From the NCBI GenBank assembly GCA_029931535.1, contig JAQPZY010001240.1:858001-922000 (forward strand): a stretch of DNA of 64,000 nt. Reading direction: 5' to 3'. Positions 5,401 through 37,754 of the stretch are shown here, in pieces. This DNA comes from Margaritifera margaritifera. Lineage: Eukaryota > Mollusca > Bivalvia > Unionida > Margaritiferidae. The position numbers and the translations under genes were made by a program. The notes beneath the pieces were generated by a model. It was not told the origin of the DNA and ran no database searches. It saw only the letters and a list, made by a program, of their open reading frames with translations. Position 1 is the stretch's first letter. The number at the start of each line of letters is the position of its first letter.

Positions 5401-7565
5401 GCAATCCCAACTGTAACATGGTATAAAAGCGATTATTAGATAAAAAGAGGTCAGATAAACTAAACTGGTCTGTATTGTCCTAAAGATGAACATACCAGCA
5501 GGGATAGAGGAAATCTCAGAGTCTGCAAAACAGTGTTGCATTTCTGGAGGTTTGGGAAGAGATGGTTGGCTGGAAAGTCTTGAAAACTTTGACAATGGTG
5601 CCACTTGAGGTTTTTTCCTTTCCTTTTTCATGTCTTTGTCTTCATCTTCATCTGAAATATTAATGAGGACTTGTATATACTGAAAGATTTCTTGATTACA
5701 CTGAATCTATGTTATGTACAGTGTATGCAGAGTACATGCAAAGCATATTTATCACTTTTTCAATAAAGCTTGTAAATTTTCCCCATGAAATGCACCAGAC
5801 TTCAGTGTATAATCCTGGATTTAGATTTGTAGTCAGGACCAAACTCTACTGTGCTTTTGGGATGGAAGTCTTAACTATAGACAAAGTAATGTACTGAAAT
5901 ATGCAGTAAATGAGGCTGAGCTCCAGGCAAAACAACTATAAGATATGTGATTAATCTTGGTTTCATAATGACTTTTCCCTTGCTATAAATTTTGCCAATG
6001 CAAATTAGATTGAAGTTCGTAACTTAAACTGTAAAATCAAAATATGTGTATCAAATAATTACTATGAGCTTTTCAATTAAACCAAGTACAAGTATCAAGC
6101 AGCGGATTTAGTTCCCACAAAATAAAATGTATTATTGGGTCATCTTGATATATTTAGCTTGGATAAATATTTTAAAAAATCAGTGATCACAGCATGTCAT
6201 AATTAAAACATTATGGGCTTTTGTTTTCTGATCACAAAAGTATATTGGATGCCAATCCTTGATATATACCATGTATAAAAAGTAGTAAAACCTTGTGCAA
6301 GTATTTTGTTTTTCTAGCAACTAGAAAATTGATTTAAATTATACAAAGGAATGCGGACCAGTCATGCAGACTTGAATGATGATCCTTTAACATTTTCTAG
6401 ATCCTTTCCATAAACAATACCACAGTATAAAGCATCATATTATAAAGAACCAAGTAAAGGCTGGACAATTTCCCAGCAGATACTGACCATCACCATTCCC
6501 CTCGTCAGACCAATTTAAGTAGGGCTGGGGTCTTTTCTTTGGCCTAGGTTTATGCTCCTCCTCTGAGTCAACATTCGACGTTTCTTCTGCTTGCTTGGCT
6601 TTAAGTAATGCCTTCTGATAACAGTCTGAATTAAAGAATGACATACTGTCGTTAACATGATGCTAACTTTAACCCATGAATATTGTGCCTAATATGTACA
6701 AGGCTATATGTACTGTTAAATCTTTAAATGTTGCCATATTGGTGCCGAAAACAACTTTTCCAGAAGTTTAATTTTTGGAATTCTTGTTTAAAAGAACTTT
6801 TAATGCAAAAGTAAAAGCCAAAGTACTTACATACCTTTTAAATCTGACATTACTGTCTTAGAAGAAAAAAAAAATAATTTCTCATTTCTATCCTACGTGT
6901 AGATACAAAGACCCTGACTTTGTATTTTGTCCATTTTTCCTTGTCTGGCAACTCGCCCTTTTTGACACGCTGAGCAGCATTAAACCTGGGCCAATAACTG
7001 TACAAGCCCTGAAAATATATAGTAGCAAATTATTGACCATCTTACTCATCCATCATTTGTTACATTGTATAGGGAGCCGCGGTAGTTCAGTTGGTACAGC
7101 ATTGGACTTGTAATCCAAGGGTTGCGGGTTCTATAGCTGCCCATGCCAGCCCAGGTCGGCTGCCTCTGCGTGTCCTTGGGAAAGGCACGTAGCTCCAATT
7201 TCCTCAGCATGATAGAGCCAAGAATGTACTAAAAGTGCAATTAAAGCCAACAAAAAGCTAAAAGCGTCATTAATACCAACAAGAACAATGAAACTGTTAC
7301 ACTGTACTCTCTTTCATAGGTAAATAACCAAAAATTGACTGAAATGATACTGGTGTTGTGTTTGTTTTAAATAACTTGAAATACATAAAAGAATGTGTAT
7401 ACATCTGGAAAACACATCATACAAATCTTAAATATATATCCAACAGTGTTCAAAAGTATAAGCAAATATCCATACCTGATCAGTTTTTTCAATCCATGAC
7501 TTGGGAACTACTTCCACTGCCTTCTCTTCCATAAATTCTATGACAGCATATTCTAGCTCACCCAT
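2481..7565 (-). CDS. spliced DUF4806-domain protein of the transposon, 11 exons
   Basis: The gene reads from ATG at 7565 to TAA at 2481. Exons by position: 7565-7476, 7008-6907, 6856-6835 (22 bases), 6625-6488, 5651-5496, 5132-5046, 4364-4245, 4078-3870, 3495-3336, 3098-2992, 2543-2481. Every border is GT-AG and every phase agrees, giving about 417 residues with no stop. The N-terminus has a short conserved block ending in GLYSYWPRF. The middle is acidic, serine-rich and low complexity. A leucine-rich helix near residues 240-260 precedes the C-terminal DUF4806 domain, which is recognisable by LSSLGGYN, then IRRMMKRIG and KGRKGKKAFQ. DUF4806 proteins occur in many animals, often as repeats beside transposase genes. 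The function is unknown. Its place inside the element and the shared strand with the transposase suggest an accessory transposition protein. The uninterrupted frame suggests recent activity. Confidence 0.82.
7077..7260 (+). repeat. tRNA-derived SINE in intron 1 of the DUF4806 gene
   Basis: The head is tRNA-like: GTAGTTCAGTTGG matches an A box, CTTGTAATCCAAG forms an anticodon arm with TGT (Thr-like), and GGTTGCGGGTTC covers most of a B box, which is damaged after GGTTC. It continues into a body with CCTTGGGAAAGGCACG and CTCCAATTTCCTC, a type of conserved central sequence known from invertebrate SINE families. It lies opposite to the host gene within its first intron. It is not a functional tRNA because no acceptor stem closes. 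Confidence 0.75.
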
Positions 7566-22609: not shown

Positions 22610-22615
22610 GATATT
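22610..22615. other. Polinton target-site duplication, left copy
   Basis: GATATT directly precedes the element. The same six bases directly follow it at 37749-37754. Six bases is the usual Polinton target duplication. Confidence 0.85.
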
Positions 22616-23262
22616 AGTATTAATATGGAACATTTTAGGGGATTGTGGTTGATTAACATTACGCCGTATGTTCACATGTATGGGTACTTCATGGGTCTAC
22701 GGGAGATTCTATGTTAAAAATGTCCATAGGTTTAACATGGGGGTAGCACTTGAGAGGTCTACTGGAAATGTAATGTTAACTTGTAGACCATTAATGGTCG
22801 TTTCCATGAAAAATGTATAGGGGTCTACTGGAATGTAATTACAATTTGTTGATACCATCCAACATATACTTTTTGATATACCAGCCAACACATACGTTTT
22901 GATATACTATCCAACACATACTTTTTGATTGCTATCCAGCACGCATTATTTTTATATATAATCCAACACACACCCGAATATCCAACAAAAAGGGAAGGAG
23001 TGTTTATACATGCTATACAACATACAAACAAACATGCTATCACATACAAGCAAGGGTAGGATTGTTTATAGACACACTATACCCCCCCACACACACACAC
23101 ACACATACTATCAAACACACGAGGAAAGCTTTTTAAGTTTTAGTTGGATTGTGAACATAGACATAGACATACACGAACATACAAACATATATCGACAGTG
23201 AGTAGTATCTCTCTTTTCTAGAGATCTCAGTGGCCTTGAAAAGGGCCGTTTGGTTGTTGTCC
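22616..23262 (+). repeat. Polinton left terminal inverted repeat
   Basis: It pairs with the right repeat over the outer sequence, a block of short tandem units (about 22850-22990, TATCCAACACATACTTTTTGA type) and the inner part up to a histone-type stem-loop. It is shorter than the right repeat because the right one carries an extra tandem copy of about 130 bases and extra minisatellite units. Confidence 0.9.
23232..23247 (-). terminator. histone-type 3' stem-loop, left inner end of the Polinton
   Basis: On the minus strand this reads GGCCCTTTTCAAGGCC, close to the metazoan replication-dependent histone stem-loop GGCTCTTTTCAGAGCC, with one unpaired position. An A/C-rich stretch (CCAAAC) precedes it and a purine run (AGAAAAGAGAGA) follows about 15 bases later, like a histone downstream element. 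It lies at the end of the long leftward gene train. Use in 3'-end formation is inferred. Confidence 0.55.
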
Positions 23263-23368
23263 TGGACCAAGGATGTTTATCGATATCCAGGACAACTGCA
23301 CCTCCCGGATCTGGCTCGACAAAAAAGGACACATAGTACCCACATATTATGTGGATCGTCAGTCAGCC

Positions 23369-23590
23369 TCAAAGGAGGCTTGCTGGCTTCCTTCTCTCAA
23401 TCTTCTTTCTCCTCCTCATCAGTGATCCAATCTTTGAACCTTTATGAGTTGTCTGGTTGAAGATCGGTGGCCAGATTAGTGAACGCAGCCCTTTATATGG
23501 TAGAAGCACGGATGTGAAGGAAAAAATCCCTCCGATTTGGTACGCGGACGTGAAAGTAAACATTTCGATAGAGAGAATGTGAAAGAGCAC
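23369..23590 (-). CDS. unrecognised open frame near the left end of the Polinton
   Basis: A 73-codon minus-strand frame ends in a basic stretch (RRRKKIERRKPASLL). It lies between the CxxC protein and the stem-loop. No family is recognised, and it could be untranslated. Confidence 0.25.
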   Translation of the reverse strand: MLFHILSIEMFTFTSAYQIGGIFSFTSVLLPYKGLRSLIWPPIFNQTTHKGSKIGSLMRRRKKIERRKPASLL

Positions 23591-23829
23591 GTCAAGATAA
23601 TTTTTTGACTAAAAATAAACAATCAGCAGTTTAATAATAAGAAGCTTCTCTTATTACTGGTCGATGAGTGTTGTCTGTGTTGATAACAAAGGCTTGAACG
23701 TCTTTAGGTTTTTGATGTGGAAGTTCATCGTTAGCACACACCACTGGATTCGAAGAAGCTGTGTACGAACTGTGAGTCAGAAGATAATGAGGTTCCCAGG
23801 TATCGTTTTTTTTACAGGTAATGATAAGT

Positions 23830-24260
23830 TATCAGTTCACACCTGATATTTTCCTTGAAAACAGCTGTCAAGTAAGTCTCAGTATTCTGTTGCAAGAGAG
23901 CTTCGATGCATTTAGTCTCCAGAGGAGTGTTCGGAGGTAAGGAATAATCACGCAAGACTTTATACCAATTGTTCAAAATCTTCTCTTCTGAGATCAGGGC
24001 CTATGCGTCTTCCATATACTCTTCCAATCTGTCTTCTGAACTCATCATCAAGCATTTGTTCTGACTAGGATGCTCGATTTGACAACCATGACAATGTTTT
24101 CTGGTTAGGCCTGTACTTTTTCAGCCAAGTCAGGAGCAAAACAGGCGAGTAAATGGTCTTCTTGTTCTGGCCATCTTGACATCATGACTGTACTTATGTC
24201 TTCTTCACTTGTGGTCTGTGACAGTTGTTCTTGTTCTGGATAGAAAACATCCTCTTCGCC
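23830..24260 (-). pseudogene. small Polinton protein with CxxC...C motif
   Basis: Directly after the capsid gene, pieces in two frames can be read. The first has an acidic stretch followed by SRWPEQEDHLLACF. The second has CHGCQIEHPSQNKCLMM, an acidic helix and WYKVLRDYSLPPNTPL. A small protein with a CxxC, PSQ and CLMM signature next to the capsid gene fits a recurring Polinton type as I remember it. Its role is unknown. At least one frame shift and two stops are present. Confidence 0.45.
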
Positions 24261-24270
24261 TATTTTTATT

Positions 24271-25444
24271 CTAATAGTCTAGGATCGCTTCTCTCAAGCT
24301 GTTGATTTCCAGAGTTTTGTAAAATTCTGCATACAAGATGACGTTCACTGTGTTCGCCAGAGCTACTGCAAACTGAAGTTCCACCCGAAGTTGGCCCGAT
24401 TTTACAGGGTGGAAATGTCCCTCGTCACTGGCTTGGTCTGTCTTGTGGCATCAAACAGTGCCAGGGAAGAGGTCTGGTACTTAAAAAATGGCGATCTCAG
24501 GTGACGTTGAAATGTTGGAACTCGAACGGATTTTGATCGTTAACGGCCGCATTGCTGACGATGCCAATGAGCAAAAGTTCTGATACCTGTCTTTTGAAAA
24601 CATGGTCTTCGGTCTTGGATCGGAGTCCAGATGCAATGGTGAAAGTTTAGACTTCTACTCGTCGTAGAGGATACTTGGCTGTCATTCTGCTCAATGTTTG
24701 ACTGATGTCGTTTTCCACTTTAGGTAAGACCTCTACATGGCGCACGTAAAGTCTGGCTTCCACGATGTTCGCACTGTACTCGTTAGCATTAGCCATCAAA
24801 TGAAATACGGTATTACTGCAATTGACTCTCAGGCGTATATCCACACCATTCAACAAATACTTGTCTTGCAACCACATGTCCAAATGGAAACGGTCCATCA
24901 TTTCTAAACTGCGTTCGTGCTTGATTTTCTTTCGACGGTCTTTAAATCCAACATTGTGAGGATCATCATCCGCAGTCAACTCTGTGTCCTTGAACTTGTC
25001 CAAAGTGTCCAGTTTTCATACCACTGAAGCATCCAAATATGTGTTCTTGGCTTCTTTTCCGTACGTCAGGAGATTTGCCAGGTAAGCTCGGTACGGGTAA
25101 GTGTCCATGCTGCTGCTGATTATTTTTTTTTTTATTCAAGTACAAATCCACATCGGTGAACAATGAATGAATGAAATTGTTGACAGGAGTTACTCTGCAT
25201 CGTCCCCTGGATTGGTGTTTTCCGTTTTGAGAACTTTGATTTTCAGACACAAATAACTGTTATTCAGATCGATCTTATCTTCGGTAGGTCCTTTGATTTC
25301 AAATTCCATAGGTGTTCAGGTGGTCAAAAACGACACAGGATGAAATTCTACCCATTGAAATTCTTGCATCGTCATCATCGTCGGTGGCATGGCAAACAAA
25401 TCGAGTTCTGACTTGGAACATTCGCAAGAATCTCGGTGCATCAT
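24271..25444 (-). pseudogene. Polinton major capsid protein (double jelly-roll), decayed
   Basis: Reading starts at ATG 25444 with MHRDSCECSKSELDLFAMPP, typical of the family N-terminus. It continues through VTPVNNFIHSLFTDVDLYLN (about residue 85 onward), then MDRFHLDMWLQDKYLLNGVD, and LYVRHVEVLP with TAKYPLRRVEV. It ends with VELQFAVALANTVNVILYAE just before TAG at 24271. Total span is about 390 codons, near the usual size. There is a TGA near 25316, frame changes near 25200 and 25130, and further stops near 25020 and 24645. This protein forms the main shell of predicted Polinton virions. It lies downstream of the integrase and minor structural genes on the same strand. Confidence 0.85.
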
Positions 25445-25479
25445 TTTATCTGGGGGTTTTTTTTGTTGTTTTTTTGTAC

Positions 25480-26104
25480 TTTTTTTTTTTTACAGTTAAT
25501 ACTCGACGACATCGTATTACATAAAGATCAAATTCAGTCCCTCCTTCAAATCAACGGGGTAGCAAAAATATTTGAAGAATCGATCGTTGTTGTAATTGGC
25601 TTTGATAGGAGCGACAGAGATGTATCAACCCAGCATATAACACAAACCGGGATTTGAAGTAATGGCAACCGTTTTGCCGTCAGAAAAATACATTTTAAGA
25701 CGATGTACTCAGTCAGTACACTTCGGTGTGTTTTATCCAGTCCTTTGCCAAACTGGTCGTTGAAAATAGCTAAAATTGTTTCCACGAGATGTTGAGCATT
25801 GAAATAATATATTGTAGGAATTTTCATGGTATAGATGTTTGGCTGCTTATGATTGCTTGGATTCGAAATAACCAGGATGATTTTTGTCCAAATGTTCTTG
25901 AACTTTTTCGTTGATGATATCGGCGATGAAAGTATTTTTTGACCTTCGTTGATATTTATAGCTTGAGTAGGATGAATGATTTCTACCAAAGCTACTTCCC
26001 AATGAGCTTCGTAATCCAATTGTATGGATTGAGGTAACTTGTCCGTGATACACATCCATAGAACTGTCACTAGGTAATGTTCAATAAAAAGACTGGTTAT
26101 TCAT
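25480..26104 (-). pseudogene. Polinton minor structural protein (penton-like), truncated
   Basis: It starts at ATG 26104 with MNNQSFY, then a stop, then LPSDSSMDVYHG. After a frame change comes KLPQSIQLDYEAHWEVALVE and IIHP. The N-terminal pattern SFYvtLPSdSSMd plus WEVALxEIxyP is typical of a protein that accompanies the major capsid protein in animal Polintons. The readable part ends at YDVVEY near 25490, and the major capsid ATG follows at once, so the C-terminal half seems missing. Penton identity is an inference from position and family association. Confidence 0.55.
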
Positions 26105-26109
26105 ATTTC

Positions 26110-26530
26110 GATGGTTCTGATATCCGAAAAGTCACTCGTTGTGAAAGGAGAATGATCTTTCAAATGTTGCAAAAGAAGGCTGATACTGTGATTGGAAAAG
26201 TTATTGTGGTGACTAGCGTTGGCTTCGATGCTACCCTTGTTGTTGTTACAGTTGGTATATTTCAAGATTCCTATGGGTGCTCCAACGACACAATACACCA
26301 CAAAGATTTCTCAGAAAAAGGCGCTTTGCATTATTTTGGGACACGTTCTCCACACCACACCCTCAAGGATTGTTTTTGCAGTTCTTGGAGAAAGTATCTC
26401 TTAGAAGTAGATGCAGCTGTGTTTAACGGCATGTTGGTAACTTCTACCTTTTTTATAATCGACGACTTGTGAAGCAATCCAATAATCGAAAAATGGGTAC
26501 ATATCCTTTCCACAGAAATTAAAATTCTTG
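26110..26530 (-). pseudogene. degenerate small gene between integrase and minor structural protein
   Basis: Several broken minus-strand frames are present, for example one with VDYKKGRSYQHA and one ending SDIRTIEI. In related elements a small Gly/Arg-rich protein lies here, but I cannot confirm the identity from what remains. Confidence 0.25.
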
Positions 26531-26544
26531 GAATCGATGTTTTT

Positions 26545-27500
26545 TCAAACCTTCCGCGTTCTTCGATGGAGAATACTTTCGATATCGTAGACGTCGTCTT
26601 CTTTCTTGGTCACTCTTTGTAACTCAGGCAAGTAAAACGTTCCCTTTAACACTTCGCCGTTCATATCTTCCAATTTATAGACAGGAGGATCACGTCCACG
26701 CACTTGTCCAGTGACACGAAACAATAATGTCTTCCAGTTAGGCAAATAACCTTTGCCAAAAGTACGTTTTGCTTTTCCAATGCGAACAAAATCCCCGCTG
26801 GTTAACACTTCTTTCTTTTTGTTCTGGCATGTGTCGTTCCAAACAATTGATCAAACACCATCACTTCTTTTTCAGGCGATACTTCTTCGGGAGCACATCC
26901 GATGCTACGATTGATTGTAAGCTTTGACTAGACGTGGTAACACGTCGATGTATTTGAGAGTATGCTGATGTGTAAATTATCTCCACATACGTTCTTTCAA
27001 AGTTCTTTGAAAACGTTCCACGACACTAACTTTTGTTTCCGGGTTTTCCGTGGTGAAAAAATGAATGTGTCTTTTTTCAATTCTTTTTGAAAAGCTTGGT
27101 TCAGAAATTTGGTGCCTTTGTCTGTTTGCCATTGTAGAGGATGCCGAAGATTTTGTTTTAAGACGGTTTTTAAAGCTCGCACTAACTCTGAACTTGTTTA
27201 GAAGTCAAAGGAACTACCCAAGATGTATTTTAAAAACACGTCTATGACACAAAACAAATATTTGTAACCTCGACTGTAAGACGCCAAATGAGACACATCT
27301 GCTTGCTATTGATGACCGACGCTTTTGTTTGACTTCTTGAAAATTCCTCAAATTGATTTGAACGTGTACGTTGATTGTTCTTGTAACCATTGTGGCATAT
27401 CTTGCAGAAGTAAACTTAGAGTTTGTTTTTATCAGCATTATACAATGTTTGAATTCCGCCGTAACCAGCAGCAAGAGCAGGATTGTAGTAAATGCTAGCG
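26545..27500 (-). pseudogene. Polinton retroviral-type integrase, decayed
   Basis: The N-terminal end near 27470 has IYYNPALAAGYGGIQ and LYNAD. The core has CVIDVF (first Asp), then LQWQTDKGTKFLNQAFQ (second Asp). The third block, with the catalytic Glu in VVERFQ, sits in a different frame near 27020. The C-terminal module at 26808-26545 has GDFVRIGKAKRTFGKGYLPN, DPPVYKLEDMNGEVLKGTFY and DDVYDIESIL, the SH3-like and chromodomain-like part of Polinton integrases. It would insert the element with a 6-bp target duplication. At least two frame changes and several stops are present. Confidence 0.88.
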
Positions 27501-27699
27501 GAAAGTGTCTCCATGTGGTTTGCTGTTGCTGCTGCTGATACGCTTCAATAAGTCACCAACTGTTTGATACTGCTCGTGTGGTATTTTTTTTTTTTTGTAT
27601 TGCGACGATGCTAGGAATAGGAGTAGTCATTGGTTCTTGATTTCTTTTTTCACTTCTGTCTTCCCTTCTTTATTTGTTTCCTTCTGCGGATGAAGGTGT

Positions 27700-28180
27700 C
27701 GACATCATCTTTTTGATCCGAGCTTCTATTTTGTCTCGTCTGGGAGTAGGGGAAGGTTTCAACAATGAGGCTGTCATACTAGGTGTTTGAGCAGTCGCAG
27801 TCTGAAACACTTCTCTTGTTTATTTTTCTTCTTCTTCCATCTCTGCAGTTGTTTCTATCATCGTCTTGGTTGCTTTTTGTTTTTATCGTTTTTCATGACA
27901 TTTTTGAAATCTCTCAGAGTAGGTTTAGCTGTCTCGTCAAAAGCTTTCTCGTGAAACAGTTGAAGACGTTGCAATACTTGTCTGTACCGTTGCGATTTCT
28001 CTGTTTCTGACAAATCTGTTCGATCCATCAACGATTGCAATTCTTGTTGTAAGTGTGACATTTCTGTGATATTAGGATTAGGAGGTAAATGTGATGTCCG
28101 TTGTTCGTACCAACGATGGAGTTCCATCCATAAATTGTAAGGAATTAAAGTTAATTTTCGTCCTTACATAAGAGCCAAAG
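27700..28180 (-). pseudogene. Polinton accessory protein with helical DLSETEK motif
   Basis: The frame from about 28127 has LQQELQSLMDRTDLSETEKS followed by RYRQVLQRLQLF. Sequence just upstream in the same frame suggests KLTLIPYNLWMELHRW. The pattern of an LxxEMxxIL, DLsddEK and YxxVLQRY stretch recurs in Polinton-type elements. A Ser/Thr/Pro-rich tail with stops follows to about 27700. Function is unknown; a virion core or scaffold role is only a guess. Confidence 0.45.
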
Positions 28181-28249
28181 GTACAAAGGTGATGTCTTTC
28201 AAAACAAAATGCGTCCTCTTTATCTTTTTCCTCATCATCTCAGCACGCC

Positions 28250-28666
28250 TCATAATAGATGTCCAGCATTAGATCCTAACAAAGGAGCAGCCTCTGTTAA
28301 CAATGGTCCTATCAGCATTTCTAGAAATCCTCCTCGTTGAACAAGTATTTTGTTCTTTTGATTGCTGAGTATTTTCTTTTTCACCATTTGGCGAAGGAGG
28401 TGAAGATGCTTTCCTAATCGCTGTTTCTGTATCTTGGGCGAAGGCACCGTTCCTTTCAAAACGTTTAAACAACATTCAAGCAAGATATCGATGATTTCTT
28501 TGGGTGGTGTTTGAATGATTTGTTTTTGAATCGGAGCATTGGATTTGGGCCGTATTTACAAAACATTTCAATGTATGGCTGAACTTGGAGGGAGCCCCTT
28601 TTTCTCCTTTTTGGATGAAGGTTTCTTTGGACGTGGTCGATGATAATTATGTGAACTGGGTGACAT
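28250..28666 (-). pseudogene. small basic Polinton protein with QRGGFL motif
   Basis: It opens at ATG 28666 with a basic stretch (PRPKKPSSKKEKKG). After two stops come ECCLNVLKGTV, a Lys/Arg-rich stretch, then QRGGFLEMLIGPLL and LLG. A basic region followed by QRGGFL and a hydrophobic end is common in Polinton and adintovirus-type genomes, where it resembles small adenoviral core or minor capsid proteins. That comparison is by pattern only. Confidence 0.5.
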
Positions 28667-28785
28667 CTTTATTTCAGGAGGAAAAACACTAAAGTGAATC
28701 TAATCCAACATTTCTTCCTTTTTTATACTGGATTTCGTCTCCATTGATTGTCGGGACGTAGTACCAACTTAAATATGGGTACCAC

Positions 28786-29043
28786 TCAACGATGAGGTGT
28801 TTTCAATGGACTAATTCGTGTAAGTTCTTGTTTGGATAAATCCAGTTGGCTTTGTAACACACCTGGTCTCTCTTGTACTTTTATTTTAGAAGAGGCCACT
28901 TTTTTGATTGCAGCAGCAGCAGCTATAGCAGTAGAAGAAAATGTAATCGCTGGAGAAGTAGAAGTTCCATTAGAAACGGGTTTCCGTTTTTGCATCAATT
29001 TGGGAAACATTGGCCTTTCATCAGGTTTGGCAGGCATCATCAT
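28786..29043 (-). CDS. Ala/Lys-rich small protein, unrecognised
   Basis: An 85-codon minus-strand frame starts MMMPAKPDERPMFPK and has an Ala run (AIAAAAAIKK) followed by basic residues. It is intact but short. Its place between the ATPase and the QRGGFL gene suggests a small virion or DNA-binding protein; no family is recognised. Confidence 0.35.
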   Translation of the reverse strand: MMMPAKPDERPMFPKLMQKRKPVSNGTSTSPAITFSSTAIAAAAAIKKVASSKIKVQERPGVLQSQLDLSKQELTRISPLKTPHR

Positions 29044-29044
29044 G

Positions 29045-29534
29045 AACTAAGAAGAAGTGGCAGGAGAAACCGTTACAGAGCGTGGTTTTCTTGAGTACGT
29101 GCGCGTTCTTGCGGCAGTACATCTCTTTCTTGCAGGAGATTTTTCAGGGGAGGTGGTTCTTGGGACTTATCTTAGAGCTTCTCTTCTTCTTTTTGTTAGA
29201 GTGTGAACTTGATGCACCACTTCTCTTCTTTTTGGTCTGCTGTATTTAAGGCGATGTGACTTTTTTTAGCTTCGGCATTAGGATCCAATTTTAAAAGTGA
29301 ACGTATAATGACACCTCCGAATGATCCACTTCTACTGGGTTTCAAATTGATTTGTTATTTGGTTTGCGTATATATTCTTGGATCAGCCAGTTGTGACAAA
29401 CTTATTTTATGTTTATCAAACAAAGTTTTGTTTGATGTGATATGTGAATGATGCCTTGAAGTAATTGACGTGCTGTTGAGATTTAAAGGAAGTCATGTTG
29501 AATACTGTCAGAATGAAAAGAAATGAATGATGTT
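29045..29534 (-). pseudogene. broken small gene downstream of the ATPase
   Basis: Only scraps are readable, such as SGSFGGVIIRSLLKLDPNAE near 29310. Stops are frequent. No identity is offered. Confidence 0.2.
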
Positions 29535-30262
29535 TTAATAGCTTTTTTTAAACAAACGAACACGAGGAATGTGACGTGTAAATGACAGAGCCTCGTTCTT
29601 CACACCAGATGTAAAACAAATTGTACGAAATCTCAAATAATCGGTAGTGGTAGATTTTACATCGACGAGTAAATACGCTTGGGGAAATTGAGTGGCATCG
29701 TCATAAACATAATTTAGCCAAGGTTTTCCTAACTGTTTGGCTAACACTTGCACTTGAGATGTGTCTCTGGGACTTTTAAACAACACTGCATGAAGTGCAT
29801 TGAGACTGATGATACGATGCACTTGACTTTGTTGAAATAAATTTTGAGTAATGTAAATAATACTGGTATTACGATGATGCCTTTTTCGTGTAAAGCAAAG
29901 ATTAATTTCTTCTTCGTCTTCTCCTAACATGTCTTTGAAGAGAACAAGATGTGTTTGACTAAAGTCAGACACGATCCCATCGTCTTAAGGAGGAATTCTT
30001 TCTACAAACGAAATGGATTCTCCTTGACTTTTTTGGAGTGACGCGTAAGCCGATTGCACTTCTTGTAACACTACACGATACATTGTTGAGGACGATCGAA
30101 CAATTGTAATTTGTGTTCCATCTAACGTTTGACAAATTCGGTTTTGCCCGAACCACTTGGGCCAGCAATCACTATTTTTAAGAGATGGTGAAGATACAGT
30201 GCCTCCCAACTTTGAAGATCTGACTTTTCGTCAATCACCTTGAGAACGGAGGATACAGCCAT
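29535..30262 (-). pseudogene. Polinton packaging ATPase (FtsK/HerA type), decayed
   Basis: It starts at ATG 30262 (MAVSSVLKVIDEK). Walker A is GPSGSGKTEF near 30150. After a frame change near 30125 the sequence continues to a TAA at 29985, then in the same frame HLVLFKDMLGEDEEE (Walker B position, with the usual acidic pair partly replaced) and SIIYITQNLFQQ, a conserved strand of this ATPase. The C-terminus has QAYLLVDVKSTTTDYLRFR. The span of about 240 codons equals the usual length. It would pump element DNA into capsids. Confidence 0.87.
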
Positions 30263-30433
30263 AATAATTGTGTTTAGAATTCTGCGATTCCATTCATGAC
30301 ACAAAACATTTTATACACGTTTAATTTGTTTTCTTGTCATGTTTGTGTAGCACAACTAAAACAAATTTACATTTCAAAGTCAGGGTACAAAGGTATAACG
30401 CGAGACAAAGAAAGAAAAAAAGACATAAGTCAC

Positions 30434-30784
30434 TCAGTGCACAAATAAGGCACAAATTAAAATCACGAAAACTGCATATACACAGGTAAGATTACAACGT
30501 TCTCGGTCCATCTGCGTAACATTTAATCTTTGTAAACGCTCTGGCGTTCTAATCTCTGTGGAATTAATCTGCCATAACCTCCCCGGGAATGTCATTTCCT
30601 CATTCTTTTCTATCTGTACAATACTACTACTTTAGTGGGCTCGAAGTATTTCTTCCTCTATTGCTGGTTCTTCTGCCACTGTTTCTAAAACAGACTCTAA
30701 TTTCACTTTCAAGCTTGGCTTTTCTCTCACTGGCTCTAAGTTAAAATATTTTCTTTGATTAGTCACACACAGTGTTTTTGGCAT
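30434..30784 (-). pseudogene. small membrane protein of the Polinton, one internal stop
   Basis: From ATG 30784 (MPKTLCVTNQRKY) to TGA at 30434, about 116 codons, with one TAA inside. The middle is acidic; TPERLQRLNVTQMDR precedes a single hydrophobic C-terminal helix (YAVFVILICALF). A tail-anchored membrane protein is the natural reading. No family is recognised. Confidence 0.45.
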
Positions 30785-30829
30785 AATCAGCCACCTTTAT
30801 ATCCAAGCATCGAAGCCAAGTCACGTACA

Positions 30830-32130
30830 TCCTTCCACTTGTAAATCTGTTGGTGCTACCAACTAGCTATACACACTCCTTGGTAAGTATGAAGCGGTTA
30901 TCACGTACCACGAAACTCTTCTTTAAACGGAGGTACACAACTCGTGCTCATGACTATTCGTATCACTTTCAATACAATGAGTTATTCGTGCACAGAAAAA
31001 GTTTTAGTGGTCATGTCTTTGCTGCTTGTACTGCTCATAACTTTGCCACAACGAATCTGCTGGTAAACGAAATCCAAGAAAAGTAGTCACTAACATATAC
31101 ACCACACGTCGTCAAAAATTCAATGTAATCTAATCATCTTGTGGAATCTGTTATTTAAACAGTATTTGGTAATCCACTAAGTCTTAAACACGGTTACTGA
31201 CTTCATTCCATGGAATTTGCTGATGTACTGATGACAAAAGTCGTGACATTGATAGCTTTATATTCATTTTGTGTTTTGTGTTTGTCATAATATAAGCTTT
31301 CCCAAGAATCAGTCTTCTTATACTGTGGAAATAGCAATAGTTTAAAAGTCGAGGAATGATTTTGAGTTTGCATGTCACTTGAAACTTTACAAACTCTCTG
31401 TAAATGCGTTTTCGCAGTTCCAGTGGTAGATTCTGAATGTGCTCTTCTAAACTAGTTATTCACGAGAATGTCTTCCTTTTTGATGAAATATTCACAGGTT
31501 TGCCAAATGGAATTTGTTGGTAAATCATATCAAAGAAATTCGGTTGTTATCTCACACACATCACACGTCGTGAAGGAGTTTAGTCTTGAAGTGATACTTC
31601 TTTTGATGTTCTTTTGTATTCCTGTAAGTTTTTAACCTATTCCTGGACTTCGTTCCATGGGAGTCTGAGTACCACTGCAATATTGTAGATAGAATTCGTG
31701 ACATCCAAAATCTTACAGTCGTTGATCAACTTTTGACTATTTGAACATCTTCAAACTAATCAGCATATTGTTCAGGTACCAATAGTTAAAATGTCTATGT
31801 CGTAAAGGGTACAATTATTCTTTGCGTTTCACTTGAATCTGTACAAAGTCTCTGAAAATGCGTCCTCGCAACTCCAAAGTTAAACTGCGAATTCTCTCTT
31901 CTAAAATATCCATATGAATAATAATCATGCCCCACCAAGGGAAGGCAGTGACAGCACGGAGACCATCTGGCATGTTAAAAAAGCCGAATATTTATATTTC
32001 CATTGGTGGATCTTCACGCCATAACTGAAACACTGCACTTCGTCTCCTCGTGGCAAGTGGATAATCCAGCTCTATCTAATGGTTTGGTAGTGGGTAATCC
32101 ATCCAGATCTTTAGGCAATTTGTGAACGTC
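30830..32130 (-). pseudogene. tandem array of two or three related small genes (LELR motif)
   Basis: One unit near 31910 reads MDILEERIRSLTLELRGRI then FRDFVQIQVK. A second near 31450 reads LEEHIQNLPLELRKRI then YREFVKFQV. Each is followed by a PWNEV motif (near 31670 and 31200). A third partial unit is suggested near 31090 by FVYQQIRCGK matching MIYQQIPFGK near 31530. The LPLEL...I pattern resembles an F-box start, but that is weak. All units have stops or frame changes. Confidence 0.45.
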
Positions 32131-32451
32131 TTAATTCGGCTTTCAAAGTTACAATAGCCAGGCAAAGCCACAGGAAACGTGTATTTGTCTTTGATTTGTA
32201 CATCTCCATGAGCTAGTGGTATTCAGAGTGGTTTGCGAGTGCATGGATGACATCTATAGATAGGCACACAAATGGCGTCACTTTTGCTATTAACTCAGAA
32301 AGGTCGTGGTAGAGAAGTGGCAAGGTTGTACTGTATCGCTGATACCGCAGAGTACGGCATTACTCAGATCGCAAGGCATAACATCGCACTCGACTTCACT
32401 GAACTTGGAGTCCGAAGTGGGTCCCTCACTCGGTTGCCGTGTTGAATTCAT
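32130..32451 (-). pseudogene. Cys-rich small gene downstream of the polymerase
   Basis: It starts at ATG 32451 (MNSTRQPSEGP), has several Cys residues (ECDVMPCDLS, then CVPIYRCHPC in another frame) and PLAHGDVQIKDKYTFPVAL. No family is recognised. It lies between the polymerase stop and the tandem LELR genes. Confidence 0.3.
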
Positions 32452-32473
32452 CTTTGTAGGCGAACGTTTGTAT

Positions 32474-34990
32474 TCACAATGATCTTTCTGTCTTTGAACT
32501 CTCTGCTTTTTTACACTGGAGATCGGTTTCTGGTAGAAACTCTAATATACTTTTCCAAGGGTCGGCTGACAATTCGGTGATTTTGCAAACGCACAATTTG
32601 TCCAGATCCAATGGTTTCAAGCAAAAGTCTTGATCTTGTCCTGACTTTAAGGCATCTTTTAAGATGACAAAGTTGACCACTGAACGATAGTTTAATGTTA
32701 GTGTTTTCACTTTACATTTGATATGAAATTGTTCTTGTTGGTCTCTGTGTTGGTAACCCTGAAACTCAAAACAGTGTCTTTGGGATGTTCATCGTTCCAA
32801 GCTCATAAACGTTTATCTTCGATGCGTGAGTGACAGCTTCCAGGGCGATCAATGTACATGCAACCATCGGTGTCAAAGTAAATGACTCGACACCCAAAAT
32901 GTTCCAAGACAGAATACAAGTTTAAACGGACCCTGGCTGTCACGTACGCTGTATTGGTTAATGCAAGGTCTGCGCCTTCTTCGTAATTCACTAGGATTAA
33001 ATCTTCAAGTAGGATGTCCACGTGTTTAATGAGTTTTTCTTTGTCTTCAACTTGTTGAAAGTGTCTACTTCGATCTGTCAAGTATTCCGTCTTTGGCAAT
33101 ATCGGACGTTGAGCCAATGTTTCCCACAAACAATTCAGCATACCTTTTCCAAACAATCGTCTTCCTTCGTTCTTTTTCACGTTTTCCAAAGTGATGCATT
33201 CTAAGGATTGGTACCTTTCTCTGAATGTTTTTTTGTCTTCTGTAATCTGACACCAAGAAGGATAACCGTTAGCTTCTTGCTTCAGTTTTAGAAATTCGTT
33301 GACGTAGTATGAAAATATTCCTTCATTGGAGTCGTGATCTTGTTGGTATTGCTCCGTGGTAGGAAAGTGCCTAATTTCCTATACTTGTAACAGTTGGTAT
33401 CCGCTATCGAGAGCATGAAACAATTCGGCGCTCACCCCCGCGTCTGTCAAGCTTCGTTCTTGATCATCGTGGCGATACGGTTGGTCTTGATTACATGTCT
33501 CAGCACACGTACGGTATAAAGGAAACATCAGTTTCCGTGGCAATGATGAGGTAAAACAAGATGGTATAAGTTCGTCGGTGGTAGCACTTTGCATTTGCTC
33601 AAACCTTCGTATTGATGAGTGTGTTCACCGTCAATGTGTTTCGTCCACATCATTTCAGGGTGACCGGTGGGGAATCAATCATACGTATACACCCAAGAAT
33701 ACAAAGAACACACATCGATGTATTTGATTTGCTCTCCTTGAGATTCGTCCATTTCATTAAACAAGCGTGTCGCATTTGTCCAAACAAACTGTCGATTGGA
33801 TTTAAAGGTTCAATGTCCACCACGTCATAATGTTCAACGACTCGTTTAAATTCTGAATTGGTTTTGAAGCGTCGATCGTAGTCGTCTTCCCACATTTCTG
33901 TTACTTAGGATCCTTGATTTTCTAAACTCAGGAGTCGTTAATATGTTTGCTCCTACAACTCTTCCATGGTGAACTCTGAGAAGGGACTTTTCAGATCTCG
34001 TTGAGTAAAAGAAGTTGCATCCGTGAAATAAACATCCCTGAAATTCACAGACGATCTGTGTATTTTTTAAATCCCATCCTTACACGGAAAGACTTCCAAT
34101 TTTCATTTCTCCACCGTCTTTTGCATGTTGTATCCACTTGTCTTCAGTTTCACACAAGTAATGTATCCAGCGCAAAGCTTTGGCGGAGTATCGACGACTG
34201 ACAGAGAGATAGGACTGAGGTGGTATGAAGGCTAGTTTGTTGATAGACTAATCTACACGCTTTGGCAATGGTAGAAGCTTCCTTCAAGGGATCGATACCA
34301 CAGTGATGCAGAAATAATTGTCAAAATTTTCCAGAACACCGTCGTAAAATGTCTACATCAGATCGACAATATTTCAGCATTTCTTCCTGAAAGTCAAACG
34401 GGTATGACGAGTAAAGTTGGTACCTAGCGTAGAAAGCTTCTCGTTGTTCTGTGTGCATATCGTCAGGGTCGTAGTAGCGAACTTCGGGCAAATGTGTTGA
34501 TTAGCCATTTTCGTTGTTCCAAACGTTATATGCCTTCTACTCGAAGTCATAGCCAAATAATTCCTGGAATCTTTAAATTGTACGTTTCCTTCTTTCATAT
34601 AAAAAGAGTTTTACTCCGTTATTGGTCAAGGTTGGAAATTTGATGCCTTGTTCTTAATAATATTTCAACATAAACTGCCCTTCGTAACCGGAGAAATTGT
34701 ACTTGTAAGCCGTCGTTCCAAAGTTTCTGGAAGTCACTTTTTGGGTCCCTCGAATGTGAAAATAATTTTCAGGAGTTAAAAACGATTTTCTTTTTGCGCT
34801 GATCATGACTTTCTTGTTCTTGTGGTAGAGGTAGATGGTGTCCTCCTCAAAATCGTTAGCATGAACTTGTACTAATACTTCACTTAGGGTGTGAGGTGAC
34901 CCCAAAAGTCGTCATCGTCGCTGGGCTTCTTCTGGTTTCTCCTTTGCAAAGTGTGATCCTTTCGTCGTGTTGAAAAATTTGATTTGACTA
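32474..34990 (-). pseudogene. Polinton protein-primed DNA polymerase B, decayed and shortened
   Basis: Readable motifs in order: NFSGYEGQFMLKYY (exonuclease II position, Asp replaced by Glu) near 34700; KYCRSDVDILRRC (exonuclease III) near 34360; DVCSLYSW (polymerase motif A, normally SLYP) near 33700; GKGMLNCLWETLAQRP (motif B) near 33140; and YFDTDGCMYI (motif C, normally DTDS) near 32870. Pieces lie in all three frames with many stops. The exonuclease I region is absent, and a block between the exonuclease II and III motifs seems deleted. About 830 codons remain of a protein usually well over 1,000. It would copy the element by protein priming at its ends. Confidence 0.9.
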
Positions 34991-34994
34991 GAGT

Positions 34995-35070
34995 ATACAC
35001 TCTCTTCCTATATATAGAGAGACCCTCTCACCCTAAGAGAATATATTAATTCAGCGTTCAGTCTGTGAAG
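34995..35070. promoter_or_regulatory. divergent promoter region with TATA element
   Basis: TATATATA at about 35009-35017 lies 55 bases before the ATG of the plus-strand knuckle gene. The polymerase gene points away on the other strand, so the short interval probably serves both. Confidence 0.45.
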
Positions 35071-35480
35071 ATGGAAGAGTCAAAGCAGATAGCACTTCTC
35101 GTCAGAGATTTACAGCGAAGCGTCGAGAGTGCACTTCCAACAAGATTTCGGACTACACCTCTCGAGATAAAAGTCAAGATACCTGCTATGTCTGTCAGGA
35201 AAAAGGACATTGGGCTCCAGAATGTCCACAATGTCAAAGAAAAGGAACCTCTAAAACAGGAGAAAAGAGAGACAAAAGTAACGATACCTGTTATCATTTT
35301 CAAGAAAATGGGCATTGATCTTTAGAGTGTTCCAAGAATAAGATAACAAGGAAAAGGAGCGTTGTTCAGAAGCAGCAGAAAAAAAAGAACCCATACCCGT
35401 AAAGAAATTCAAGAGTGCGAGACAAATAGAAGAACCTGAAGAAGAAGAGGAACCCATGCCAGTAAGGAAATTCAAATGAG
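35071..35480 (+). pseudogene. CCHC zinc-knuckle protein of the Polinton, frameshifted
   Basis: ATG 35071 opens MEESKQIALLVRDLQRS. In another frame CYVCQEKGHWAPEC (35184-35225) is a perfect CX2CX4HX4C knuckle. A second repeat at 35289-35330 has lost one Cys (CYHF) and carries a stop. The tail is Lys/Glu-rich. Knuckles of this type bind single-stranded nucleic acid in Gag-like and cellular proteins. One frame change separates the start from the knuckles. Confidence 0.55.
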
Positions 35481-35729
35481 AAAGACTGTGAAAGAAAAAA
35501 GAAGAAGAAAATCTACGTTTGTGTTGTGTTATGAATTTTCATTGTGATTCTGATTTCACAAGAATATACCAAAAAGAAAACGTGTGTCTTTGTCTATACT
35601 TTTTTAAAATCTCTTTTCTGTTAGTATGGATGAGATTTTTCACACACTCACACACTGTATCATGGAGGGATTTAAGTTTAATTTAATTTGACAATCATTT
35701 AATATTATCTTTTTTTAAGAGATACAGGT

Positions 35730-35745
35730 GGCCATGAAAAGTACC
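35730..35745 (-). terminator. histone-type 3' stem-loop, internal, decayed
   Basis: On the minus strand this reads GGTACTTTTCATGGCC, preceded by CCAAC and followed by ACCTG and a purine run (AAAAAAAGA). Loop (TTTC) and flanks match the histone element, but two stem pairs are broken. It lies about 190 bases after the stop of the minus-strand gene at 35935-36397 and is outside the terminal repeats, so it is not simply a repeat copy. Confidence 0.4.
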
Positions 35746-35934
35746 GTTGGAGTTTTTTAAATAACAAAAAAAAAAAAGAAAAAAACATATGGACTTGATA
35801 TCATCAGCTGTAACTGTTTAAAACCTTTTCCATGGCCAAGTCCTACTCCTACTCCTGTTGTAATGGTAGTAGTAACTGCTGCTGCTGCTGGCATCTCAGT
35901 GCTGGTGGTGAACATCGATGTAGTCATAGAAGGT

Positions 35935-36397
35935 TTAGAAATCTTGGATCGTGAAGGTCTTCGGTTGGGCCAAAGAGGTCTGATACATTTCTCTCAGATG
36001 TTTTAACTCTTCCAAAATGTCTTGTAACAGACTAAACATTTTGTTTTCACTCACTTCCTTCTGTTCACAGTTCAAAGTTTTCCTCTTCCTTTCTTCTTCT
36101 CATCGCTTTCTATTTTCCTCTTTTTCTTTTGAACATATACTTTTTCTTTCTGACGTTGCAAAAAACTCTCCAATTCTGCCGTCTGTTTCTTTCTGAAATC
36201 ATCATATACTGGTAATTATGGAGAAGGAGGTGATGGTGGTCTTGCGGAGACGATAGTAAATCACACAGTGCCAAACTGAAGTCATCCTCTTCTGGAAGAA
36301 TACTTGCTACAGTAGCAATAGTAGTAGTAGTAGTCGTACTATCACTCCGGGCATACGATGTGTCCGCGGCAGGCGCACCCCAATACGTTGTCTTCAT
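35935..36397 (-). pseudogene. unrecognised coiled-coil protein near the right end
   Basis: ATG 36397 opens MKTTYWGAPAADTSYARSD and a Thr-rich stretch. After a frame change near 36200 a Lys/Glu-rich stretch leads to LLQDILEELKHLREMYQ, a likely coiled coil, and TAA at 35935. About 154 codons. No family is recognised. Upstream on the minus strand are two CCAAT boxes and a TATA element. Confidence 0.4.
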
Positions 36398-36459
36398 GTT
36401 ATTAGTCATAGGTATTACATGTAAACTCTTCCGCAATGATAAATCGTAGGAACGCTGGT

Positions 36460-36600
36460 GCGCATATATATTGAAAGTGACGCGTCCGCTGTCCTCTGAT
36501 TGGAAGGGAGACAATGCACCCTGACTGAATTATGTTAGACGCATTCTGATTGGTGGAACATTTCAATCCGTTTCGATCCGGTCCTAGATTATATATACAA
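36460..36600. promoter_or_regulatory. bidirectional promoter with two CCAAT boxes and TATA elements
   Basis: On the minus strand CCAATCAG occurs at 36546-36553 and 36496-36503, followed by TATATATG near 36463-36470, about 70 bases before ATG 36397. A second TATATATA near 36589-36597 could serve the plus strand. Order and spacing match ordinary animal core promoters. Confidence 0.5.
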
Positions 36601-36679
36601 ACCCATTGGTCTATTGTGTCACCTGTTCTCAAGACTACCTGACAAGGTAAAACTAGAACCATTGACCATCATTTCCAAC

Positions 36680-36835
36680 ATGCTATTTAATCCAGACTTC
36701 CTGGTATATGTCAAGGCATCGTGGGCAATTACTAGGATTACAGATACAGCTATATGGAAGAGTAGATTCTATGTGGAAAGGCAAGGGTACCTGAAGTGTG
36801 TCTTAGTCTACGGACCGTCTGGGAGGAGAAGTTAG
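36680..36835 (+). CDS. short unrecognised open frame before the right terminal repeat
   Basis: ATG 36680 opens MLFNPDFLVYVKASWAI and runs 51 codons to a TAG. It follows the bidirectional promoter and ends 64 bases before a histone-type stem-loop, so it may be a tiny gene or the 3' remnant of one. Confidence 0.25.
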   Translation: MLFNPDFLVYVKASWAITRITDTAIWKSRFYVERQGYLKCVLVYGPSGRRS

Positions 36836-36892
36836 AGGAGAAAAAGTGTGAAGCGATGTGCTATGTGTTAACCCTCTTCTTTGGTTAACAAC

Positions 36893-37748
36893 CTCAACGT
36901 CCCTTTTGAGGGCCACCCAGATCGCTAGAAAAGAAAGATACTACGCAAAACATTGCTAATATATGTGTTTGTATATTTGTGTACGTATATATCTATGTTC
37001 ACAATCCAACTCAAACTTTAAACCCCTTACTCCTCTTGTGTGTGATAGTATAGTATGTTTGTATGGGTATAGTGTATCTGTAAACACTCCTACCCTTGCT
37101 CGCAGTGATAGTATGTTTGTATGTATGTAAGTATAGTGTGTGTACAAAAACTTCTACCCTTTTTGTTGGATAGTCGGGTGTGTGTTGGATAGTATATTAA
37201 ACAGTGTGTGCTGGATAGTAATAAAAAAGTACTTAATGTGTGTTGGATAGTATAAGTGTAGAGTTCGTAGTCACTACATACGTTGTGTTGTAAAGTATAT
37301 CAAAAAGCATGTGCTGGATAGTAATCAAAAAGTAGGTGTTTGATAGTATATCAAAAAGTATGTTTTGGATGGTATCTAACAATTTTAACATTATATTTCC
37401 CGTAGACCCTATAAACGTTTCAACACGAAAATGGTCTGTAACGGTCCACAAATTAACATTACATTTCCCGCAGACACCTCAAGTACCACCCGCATGTTAA
37501 ACCATTCGACATTTTTAACATAGGATTTCCCGTATACCCCTATAAATTTTTCAACATGGAAACGGCCTAATACGGTCCACAAGTTAACATTACATTTCCG
37601 TTAGACCCCTCAAAATGTCATCTGCATGTTAAACCTATGGACTTCATTAACATATGATTTCCCGTAGACCCCTCAAGTGCCCCCATATGTAAACCTACGG
37701 CATAATGTTAATCCCCCATAATCCCCTCAAGTGCCCCATATTACTACT
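36893..37748 (-). repeat. Polinton right terminal inverted repeat
   Basis: Inverted partner of 22616-23262. It contains tandem TTGGATAGTATATCAAAAAGTA-type units (about 37165-37375) and two tandem copies of a block of about 130 bases (from about 37399 and 37531), each with TTAACATTACATTTCC. It ends CCATATTACTACT. Confidence 0.9.
36899..36914 (+). terminator. histone-type 3' stem-loop, right inner end of the Polinton
   Basis: GTCCCTTTTGAGGGCC is preceded by CTCAAC and followed by ACCCA, exactly the flank of animal histone stem-loops. A purine run AGAAAAGAAAGA begins about 12 bases after the stem, like a histone downstream element. One stem pair is mismatched. It faces outward, mirroring the left copy. 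Confidence 0.6.
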
Positions 37749-37754
37749 GATATT
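37749..37754. other. Polinton target-site duplication, right copy
   Basis: GATATT directly follows the CT end, identical to 22610-22615. Confidence 0.85.

Follow-up and report, generated by a model that had tools for sequence, protein, structure and literature searches.

Two described systems come closest to the locus considered here. The 3' end of replication-dependent histone mRNAs (Rfam family RF00032, Histone3), which is served by SLBP and the U7 small nuclear ribonucleoprotein (U7 snRNP), combines a stem-loop of characteristic sequence and size with an ACCCA-type flank and a purine downstream element, at a short distance from the stop codon. Polintons or Mavericks (Adintoviridae-like) are recognized by their genes for an integrase, a type B DNA polymerase (PolB), an A32-type ATPase, capsid proteins and a protease, and by their terminal inverted repeats. 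The 64,000-nucleotide stretch of the Margaritifera margaritifera genome analysed here (contig JAQPZY010001240.1, positions 858,001 to 922,000), hereafter the window, contains a decayed element which is a Polinton as judged from tblastn homologues of the protease, capsid protein, integrase, ATPase and PolB. This element and its better-preserved relatives in the same genome have the gene set and terminal inverted repeats of Polintons. The relatives also have the stem-loop, flank, purine element and stop distance of the histone mRNA end, arranged in three parts like the histone ends that we have read in this genome, and the element of the window retains decayed copies. They differ from known Polintons in that five accessory genes, which we designate orfA to orfE, have 3' ends of the histone type, and from histone genes in that the genes concerned do not encode histones and exist as dispersed copies on a mobile element. 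An earlier note on the window had proposed that histone-type 3'-end signals occur in this Polinton; that reading as a whole is partly supported, and its central claim is strongly supported by the better-preserved relatives and by the layout of the host's histone genes. From the sequence features described below, we consider it very likely that orfA to orfE of this lineage use the histone 3'-end pathway of their host.

In literature under open licences we found no description of histone-type ends in Polintons, so their absence from print is unproven. Six histone 3' UTR stem-loops have been counted among the non-coding RNA matches in the genomes of Polinton-like viruses (PLVs) and virophages (PMC12220804); these are the same type of Rfam match, given in that section as a bare count and not among the matches of cryptophyte PLVs, and their positions, genes and function are not discussed in that section. 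The term "stem-loop" does not occur in the main text of PMC11071296. If our reading is true, a virus-like element with a histone-type signal on several unrelated genes would break the rule that ties stem-loop ends to histone mRNAs, and it would offer a hypothesis, open to direct test, on the coupling of its gene expression to host DNA replication.

The signal and the genes that end in it

A search of the 2.45-Gb assembly with the Histone3 model scored at least 75 candidates, all listed ones over the cut-off (best E 1.7e-9, up to 45.8 bits); the same model found a match in one of 14 control genomes, and none over the cut-off. We looked at 38 of the at least 75 listed candidates, 30 in 3-kb loci and 8 more in 10-kb loci. 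Polinton genes are present in twenty 10-kb loci, and 27 Histone3 matches over the gathering score are spread over 14 loci. The matches listed do not include the stem-loops of host histone genes, although these pass or nearly pass the cut-off when scored individually, and the lack of a listed match on a contig with H4 genes therefore says little.

One of the relatives lies on contig C72 (30 kb of loci L031 to L033) and is here called C72. Its genes orfA and orfB lie at one end; then come the protease, capsid genes, integrase, ATPase, BIR-domain gene and PolB, all on the same strand, and at the other end a convergent zinc-knuckle gene is followed by orfC, orfD and orfE. Pfam recognizes the integrase (rve, 2e-13), the A32-type ATPase (Pox_A32, 2.5e-7), the polymerase (DNA_pol_B_2, 1.2e-6) and the BIR domain (3.5e-23), and some of the core frames are interrupted; orfA to orfE have no Pfam or PHROG match at E<=0.01. 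Histone3 finds five stem-loops in this element (E 1.2e-10 to 4.1e-6), four of them over the gathering score and one at 33.3 against 34 bits, and each stands on the sense strand 24 to 36 nt past a stop codon, which for orfE is the stop of a second short frame, 24 nt away. A TATA-like box lies 46 to 68 nt before the ATG in all five of orfA to orfE, and six others of 14 checked have one at 44 to 108 nt.

The same placement recurs across the relatives. Among 66 stem-loops in 37 loci, 46 lie 15 to 60 nt past a stop codon that closes an ATG frame of 50 or more residues, as compared to 5.0% of random points; this is the clustering after stop codons for which the earlier note had proposed a check. A stem-loop follows within 350 nt of 37 of the 41 ends of orfA to orfE homologues (orfA 7/8, orfB 7/7, orfC 8/10, orfD 10/11, orfE 5/5), ends among which the three stem-loops of the window are not counted, and it follows none of the 41 ends or near-ends of other genes in the sampled loci (ATPase 2, BIR 3, integrase 3, capsid piece 5, PolB 2, zinc knuckle 10, F-box-like 2, minor capsid 3, p156 2, p173 3, protease 6; F-box is our own label for an F-box-like gene). 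The stem-loops of orfB and orfC lie outside the listed genome matches that led us to these loci, yet 15 of their 17 ends bear the signal. It is found 18 to 75 nt after the expected ends of orfA to orfD and 140 to 163 nt after that of orfE. The signal is partitioned by gene type: orfA to orfE carry it, and the sampled replication and virion genes do not. The earlier suggestion that such ends would suit a self-replicating element does not fare well here, for stem-loops are missing from the ends or near-ends of the polymerase, integrase, ATPase, protease and capsid genes, and occur instead on small accessory genes that have TATA-like boxes of their own.

The complete signal has three parts, namely the stem-loop with ACCCA, a purine element at +27 to +28 and a block ATTGCC near +50. 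Its anatomy was read from 77 contexts selected for a stem with no more than two mismatches, at least three of the five letters of ACCCA and a purine word; of the window's copies only the internal one qualifies. The stem is perfect in 69 contexts, and the purine element, present in all 77 by selection, starts at +27 or +28 in 75. ATTGCC, which was not selected for, occurs at +41 to +54 in 71 of the 77, with about 1.5% expected. Pairwise identity is 0.8 to 1.0 at most stem-loop and purine positions, part of which is forced by the selection, and mostly 0.24 to 0.38, near chance, upstream of -25 and beyond +45. The sequences upstream fall into eight clusters (28, 24, 9, 7, 6, 1, 1 and 1 contexts), the five large ones corresponding to orfE, D, C, B and A, and genes with unrelated coding sequence therefore have the signal in common. 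Fifteen distinct stem-loop sequences occur in the 77 contexts, a natural set of signal variants carried by unrelated genes, alongside the histone genes of the host.

Three stem-loops in the window

The features of the decayed element that bear on the signal are as follows.

22611..23258, no strand: left terminal inverted repeat, with the left stem-loop near its inner edge (blastn of both ends and repeat finding)
23194..23199, minus strand: decayed third block ACTGTC, ATTGCC in relatives (direct reading; alignments)
23212..23219, minus strand: purine element AGAAAAGA, like the histone downstream element (HDE) (direct reading; alignment)
23232..23247, minus strand: left stem-loop GGCCCT-TTTC-AAGGCC, one mismatch, flank ACTGA, downstream of the decayed gene at the left terminus (Rfam Histone3 24.7 bits, E 0.0038; alignment)
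35690..35695, minus strand: third block remnant ATTGTC (alignment)
35730..35745, minus strand: internal stem-loop GGTACT-TTTC-ATGGCC, two mismatches, flank ACCTG, at the place of the orfC stem-loop in relatives (alignments)
35962..36063, minus strand: orfC remnant (tblastn 58.8% identity over 34 residues, E 1.4e-6)
36653..36817, plus strand: orfD remnant, upstream of the right stem-loop (tblastn 60% identity, residues 5-59 of 76, E 9e-20; within the open frame 36539-36835)
36887..37753, no strand: right terminal inverted repeat, enclosing the right stem-loop close to its inner edge (blastn of both ends and repeat finding)
36899..36914, plus strand: right stem-loop GTCCCT-TTTG-AGGGCC, one mismatch, then ACCCA at 36915-36919 (Rfam Histone3 21.0 bits, E 0.088)
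36927..36934, plus strand: purine element AGAAAAGA (direct reading)
36952..36957, plus strand: third block ATTGCT (direct reading)

Direct reading confirms the three histone-type stem-loops at the positions and on the strands that the earlier note had given for them, and the outer two are, as it had claimed, partners in the inverted repeats, which are about 80% identical, in pieces. All three also lie downstream of gene ends: the internal one is just downstream of the C-terminal remnant of orfC, the right one follows the orfD remnant, and the left one has as its counterpart an intact stem-loop in the related copy L050, 41 nt after an orfA-like end. On alignment, all three coincide with sites of the signal in better-preserved relatives from this genome. 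A purine run had been claimed after each stem-loop; it is present after the outer two, and after the internal one it has decayed to an A-rich stretch. Pieces of the window element are 26-71% identical to C72 proteins by tblastn, and since its stem-loops occupy the same places, the arrangement predates the split of these two lineages.

Chance as a source of these stem-loops was rejected on pattern counts. The pattern GGYYCTTTTNARRRCCAC, with up to three mismatches, has nine matches in the window against 2.58 expected, and the mismatches number 0, 2 and 1 in the three stem-loops and 3 in each of the other six matches. The pattern CAACGGYCCTTTTCAGGGCCACCCA, also with up to three mismatches, has a single match (36895-36919, two mismatches) and none in 100 shuffles. 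By the definition used in the gene-end tally, no stem-loop occurs in the remaining 46 kb of the window, beyond the element, and three strict, exact patterns of the signal had no match in prokaryote contigs, a search that also served as a specificity control, or in IMG/VR.

It might be supposed that we are dealing with hairpins that act at the level of DNA, in the replication or integration of the terminal repeats, and that resemble histone ends by chance. The outer copies of the window do lie in terminal repeats, but copies also follow orfB, orfC and orfD, they are oriented in sense to the gene end, they come with the HDE and the third block, and their Rfam E-values go down to 1e-10. We rejected this explanation on the copies outside the terminal repeats and regard it as extremely improbable.

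Host histone ends and the proposed route of 3'-end formation

The host's H4 genes are arranged in tandem on contigs C642, C308 and C528 and are single elsewhere. We read eight host histone ends, namely five of H4 (in two similar groups) and one each of H2A, H2B and H1. All eight have the stem-loop (33.9 to 38 bits, seven at or over the gathering score) and a purine element at +28 to +30, and all eight (loci L053-L059) have a third block at +48 to +51, beyond the usual HDE, in the form TTGCCA (4), TGCCA (2), GTACCA (1) or ATTGTCA (1). A joint alignment of Polinton and host histone ends gives the same layout for both; the flank is mostly ACCCA in the Polintons, whereas it is ACACA, ATACA or ACTCA in the host, and the better Polinton signals (to 45.8 bits) outscore these host ends. 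The host also encodes the SLBP_RNA_bind domain (PF15247), in two pieces on contig C413 (2.3e-14 and 2.1e-6).

So close a match to host histone ends is what one would find if the elements had inserted into histone genes or captured them, leaving the stem-loops as inert debris. No histone word was found by an exact-word test in the first 30 loci, however, and copies with accessory proteins at 48-88% identity to their C72 counterparts have retained the signal while their flanks have diverged; it is even kept, in decayed form, in the element of the window, diverged as that is. The exact-word test and the divergence of flanks around a conserved signal led us to reject debris as an explanation, and we hold it to be highly unlikely.

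The five small accessory genes near the element ends, which form short units with TATA-like boxes, close in a complete host-type histone 3'-processing signal. By analogy with the known histone pathway, host SLBP would bind the stem-loop of the orfA to orfE pre-mRNAs and U7 snRNP would bind the downstream elements, the purine element among them; cleavage would fall just after ACCCA and free an mRNA that has no poly(A) tail. Release in this form would in turn lead the orfA to orfE mRNAs to accumulate and be translated mainly alongside histone mRNAs, in S phase. The third block, common to Polintons and host histones, is a candidate part of U7 recognition and, speculatively, may extend the pairing with U7. 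We think it probable that this Polinton lineage adopted the host's histone 3'-end code in full, the third block included (ATTGCC near +50, with TTGCCA-like forms in host H4, H2A and H2B), and that its mRNAs would be the first known non-histone animal protein-coding mRNAs with a terminal stem-loop in place of poly(A), the products of accessory, probably early, genes that are switched on with DNA replication.

A narrower role for the stem-loop, in which it would chiefly bind SLBP for the sake of translation or stability, or lure SLBP or U7 away from the host, and would not serve cleavage, would be in keeping with the number of high-scoring sites in this genome (at least 75). A pure SLBP site would, however, leave the purine element and the ATTGCC block, which stand at host spacing, without a role, and the signal keeps to the gene-end distances given above, including the 24 nt after the second orfE frame of C72; we judge this role unlikely.

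Several observations weigh against the use of the histone pathway by orfA to orfE, and one of them, against its exclusive use, concerns AATAAA. Its absence, which had been expected of non-polyadenylated ends, holds for the 60 nt upstream in 57 of the 77 contexts and fails in the other 20, all of the orfE type, in which AATAAA lies 21-22 nt before the stem-loop (e.g., L034, L035, L042 and L049); orfE could therefore also be polyadenylated. The loci were all reached via some stem-loop match, which favours elements that have kept the signal and so inflates the counts for orfA, orfD and orfE, and the copies are related, so that the counts are not independent. In the tally of gene ends, the capsid (MCP) and PolB queries stop short of the ends of their genes. 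The pattern for the host third block was written after inspection of those ends, and the exact ATTGCC occurs in one of the eight. Covariation, in an alignment of 32 hand-chosen sequences (31 distinct), is modest: 96.8% of the alignment cells pair, the third and fourth pairs of the stem alternate between C-G, U-G and U-A, and the compensatory changes looked for are seen in the covariation score and in five doubly changed cells, both above all 500 shuffles, and are not seen in the counts of doubly changed pairs (two, reached by 132 of the 500 shuffles) or of pair types (reached by 129 of the 500). In the window itself the model scores are low, the left and right stem-loops being below the Histone3 gathering score of 34 bits (E-values over 4227 families) and the internal one missing from the matches at E<=10, and none of them appears in a scan at gathering scores; a significant model score is found in the relatives, strongly so in C72. 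Finally, the searches of public collections turned up no relative with DNA of a different species.

The orfE contexts also bear on the possibility of dual 3' ends, in which the stem-loop is used in S phase and some genes are polyadenylated via AATAAA as well, to give both replication-coupled and constitutive mRNAs. In 19 of the 20 orfE copies the AATAAA is flanked by GGAGG and CCTCC, which could pair to form a hairpin with AATAAA in its loop, and overlapping histone and canonical processing signals have reportedly been described for a human histone pre-mRNA (PMC9756948). Set against this are the 57 contexts that have no upstream AATAAA, the stretch from +16 to +110, where AATAAA occurs in none of the 77 contexts (ATTAAA in two), and the 160 nt past the stops of orfA to orfE in C72, where neither word is found. 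We entertain dual ends as a possible but rather doubtful arrangement. A companion expectation, that the other genes carry AATAAA instead, was borne out weakly: in C72 AATAAA lies at 6 nt from the ATPase and ATTAAA at 59 nt from the protease, and in the relatives the protease has ATTAAA in three of five cases and the zinc-knuckle gene AATAAA in one of eight. We therefore refrain from dividing the 3' ends into two clean classes.

Other genes, relatives and minor observations

The broken frames of the window yield only a zinc knuckle above the Pfam cut-off, with no PolB, RVE integrase or A32-type ATPase match, and the relatives were therefore used for gene identification. The remaining genes are listed here.

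23658..23828, minus strand: protease remnant (tblastn 71% to C72)
24467..25051, minus strand: major capsid protein remnant (tblastn 63% to C72)
26113..27514, minus strand: integrase remnant (tblastn 36-49% to C72 pieces)
29563..30259, minus strand: packaging ATPase remnant (tblastn 60-67% to C72)
about 31934-32180, minus strand: BIR-domain homologue (tblastn)
32534..34920, minus strand: DNA polymerase B remnant (tblastn 36-59% to C72)
35157..35357, plus strand: zinc-knuckle gene, convergent with orfC (zf-CCHC 1.2e-6; tblastn; 0 of 10 relatives with a stem-loop after it)

The names of the protease, of which the C72 copy has no Pfam match, and of the capsid proteins, major capsid among them, are putative and taken from position and resemblance.

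Relatives of orfD (L033:5980-6207, plus strand) were found on two short contigs of public collections, at 65-67% identity; orfB had no homologue in the collections searched. Searches of IMG/VR by the integrase, a capsid piece, ATPase alignments and stem-loop patterns returned nothing usable, the ATPase found no relatives in prokaryote contigs, and the PolB piece of the window found no match in public phage records. Two ATPase alignment matches, L051 and L052, were set aside, with 48 and 24 residues matched and no Histone3 match at E<=1.

Upstream of orfA, orfE and orfC in C72 there are TGACGTCA-like (CRE/ATF) words (L031 ~7436-7450, minus strand; L033 ~6416, plus strand; L033 ~5815, minus strand), which bring early viral promoters to mind. 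The BIR (inhibitor-of-apoptosis) domain is encoded by these Polintons, in C72 at L032:8971-9624 on the minus strand. Short tandem repeat units occur within the terminal repeats (window 37181-37673; L031 6830-6960; L033 7156-7356). At L038 5891-9982 a second, more diverged Polinton lies beside the end of a first, its PolB pieces sharing 41-61% identity with C72, and the window contains a tRNA match at 7076-7148 (38.1 bits, over the gathering score).

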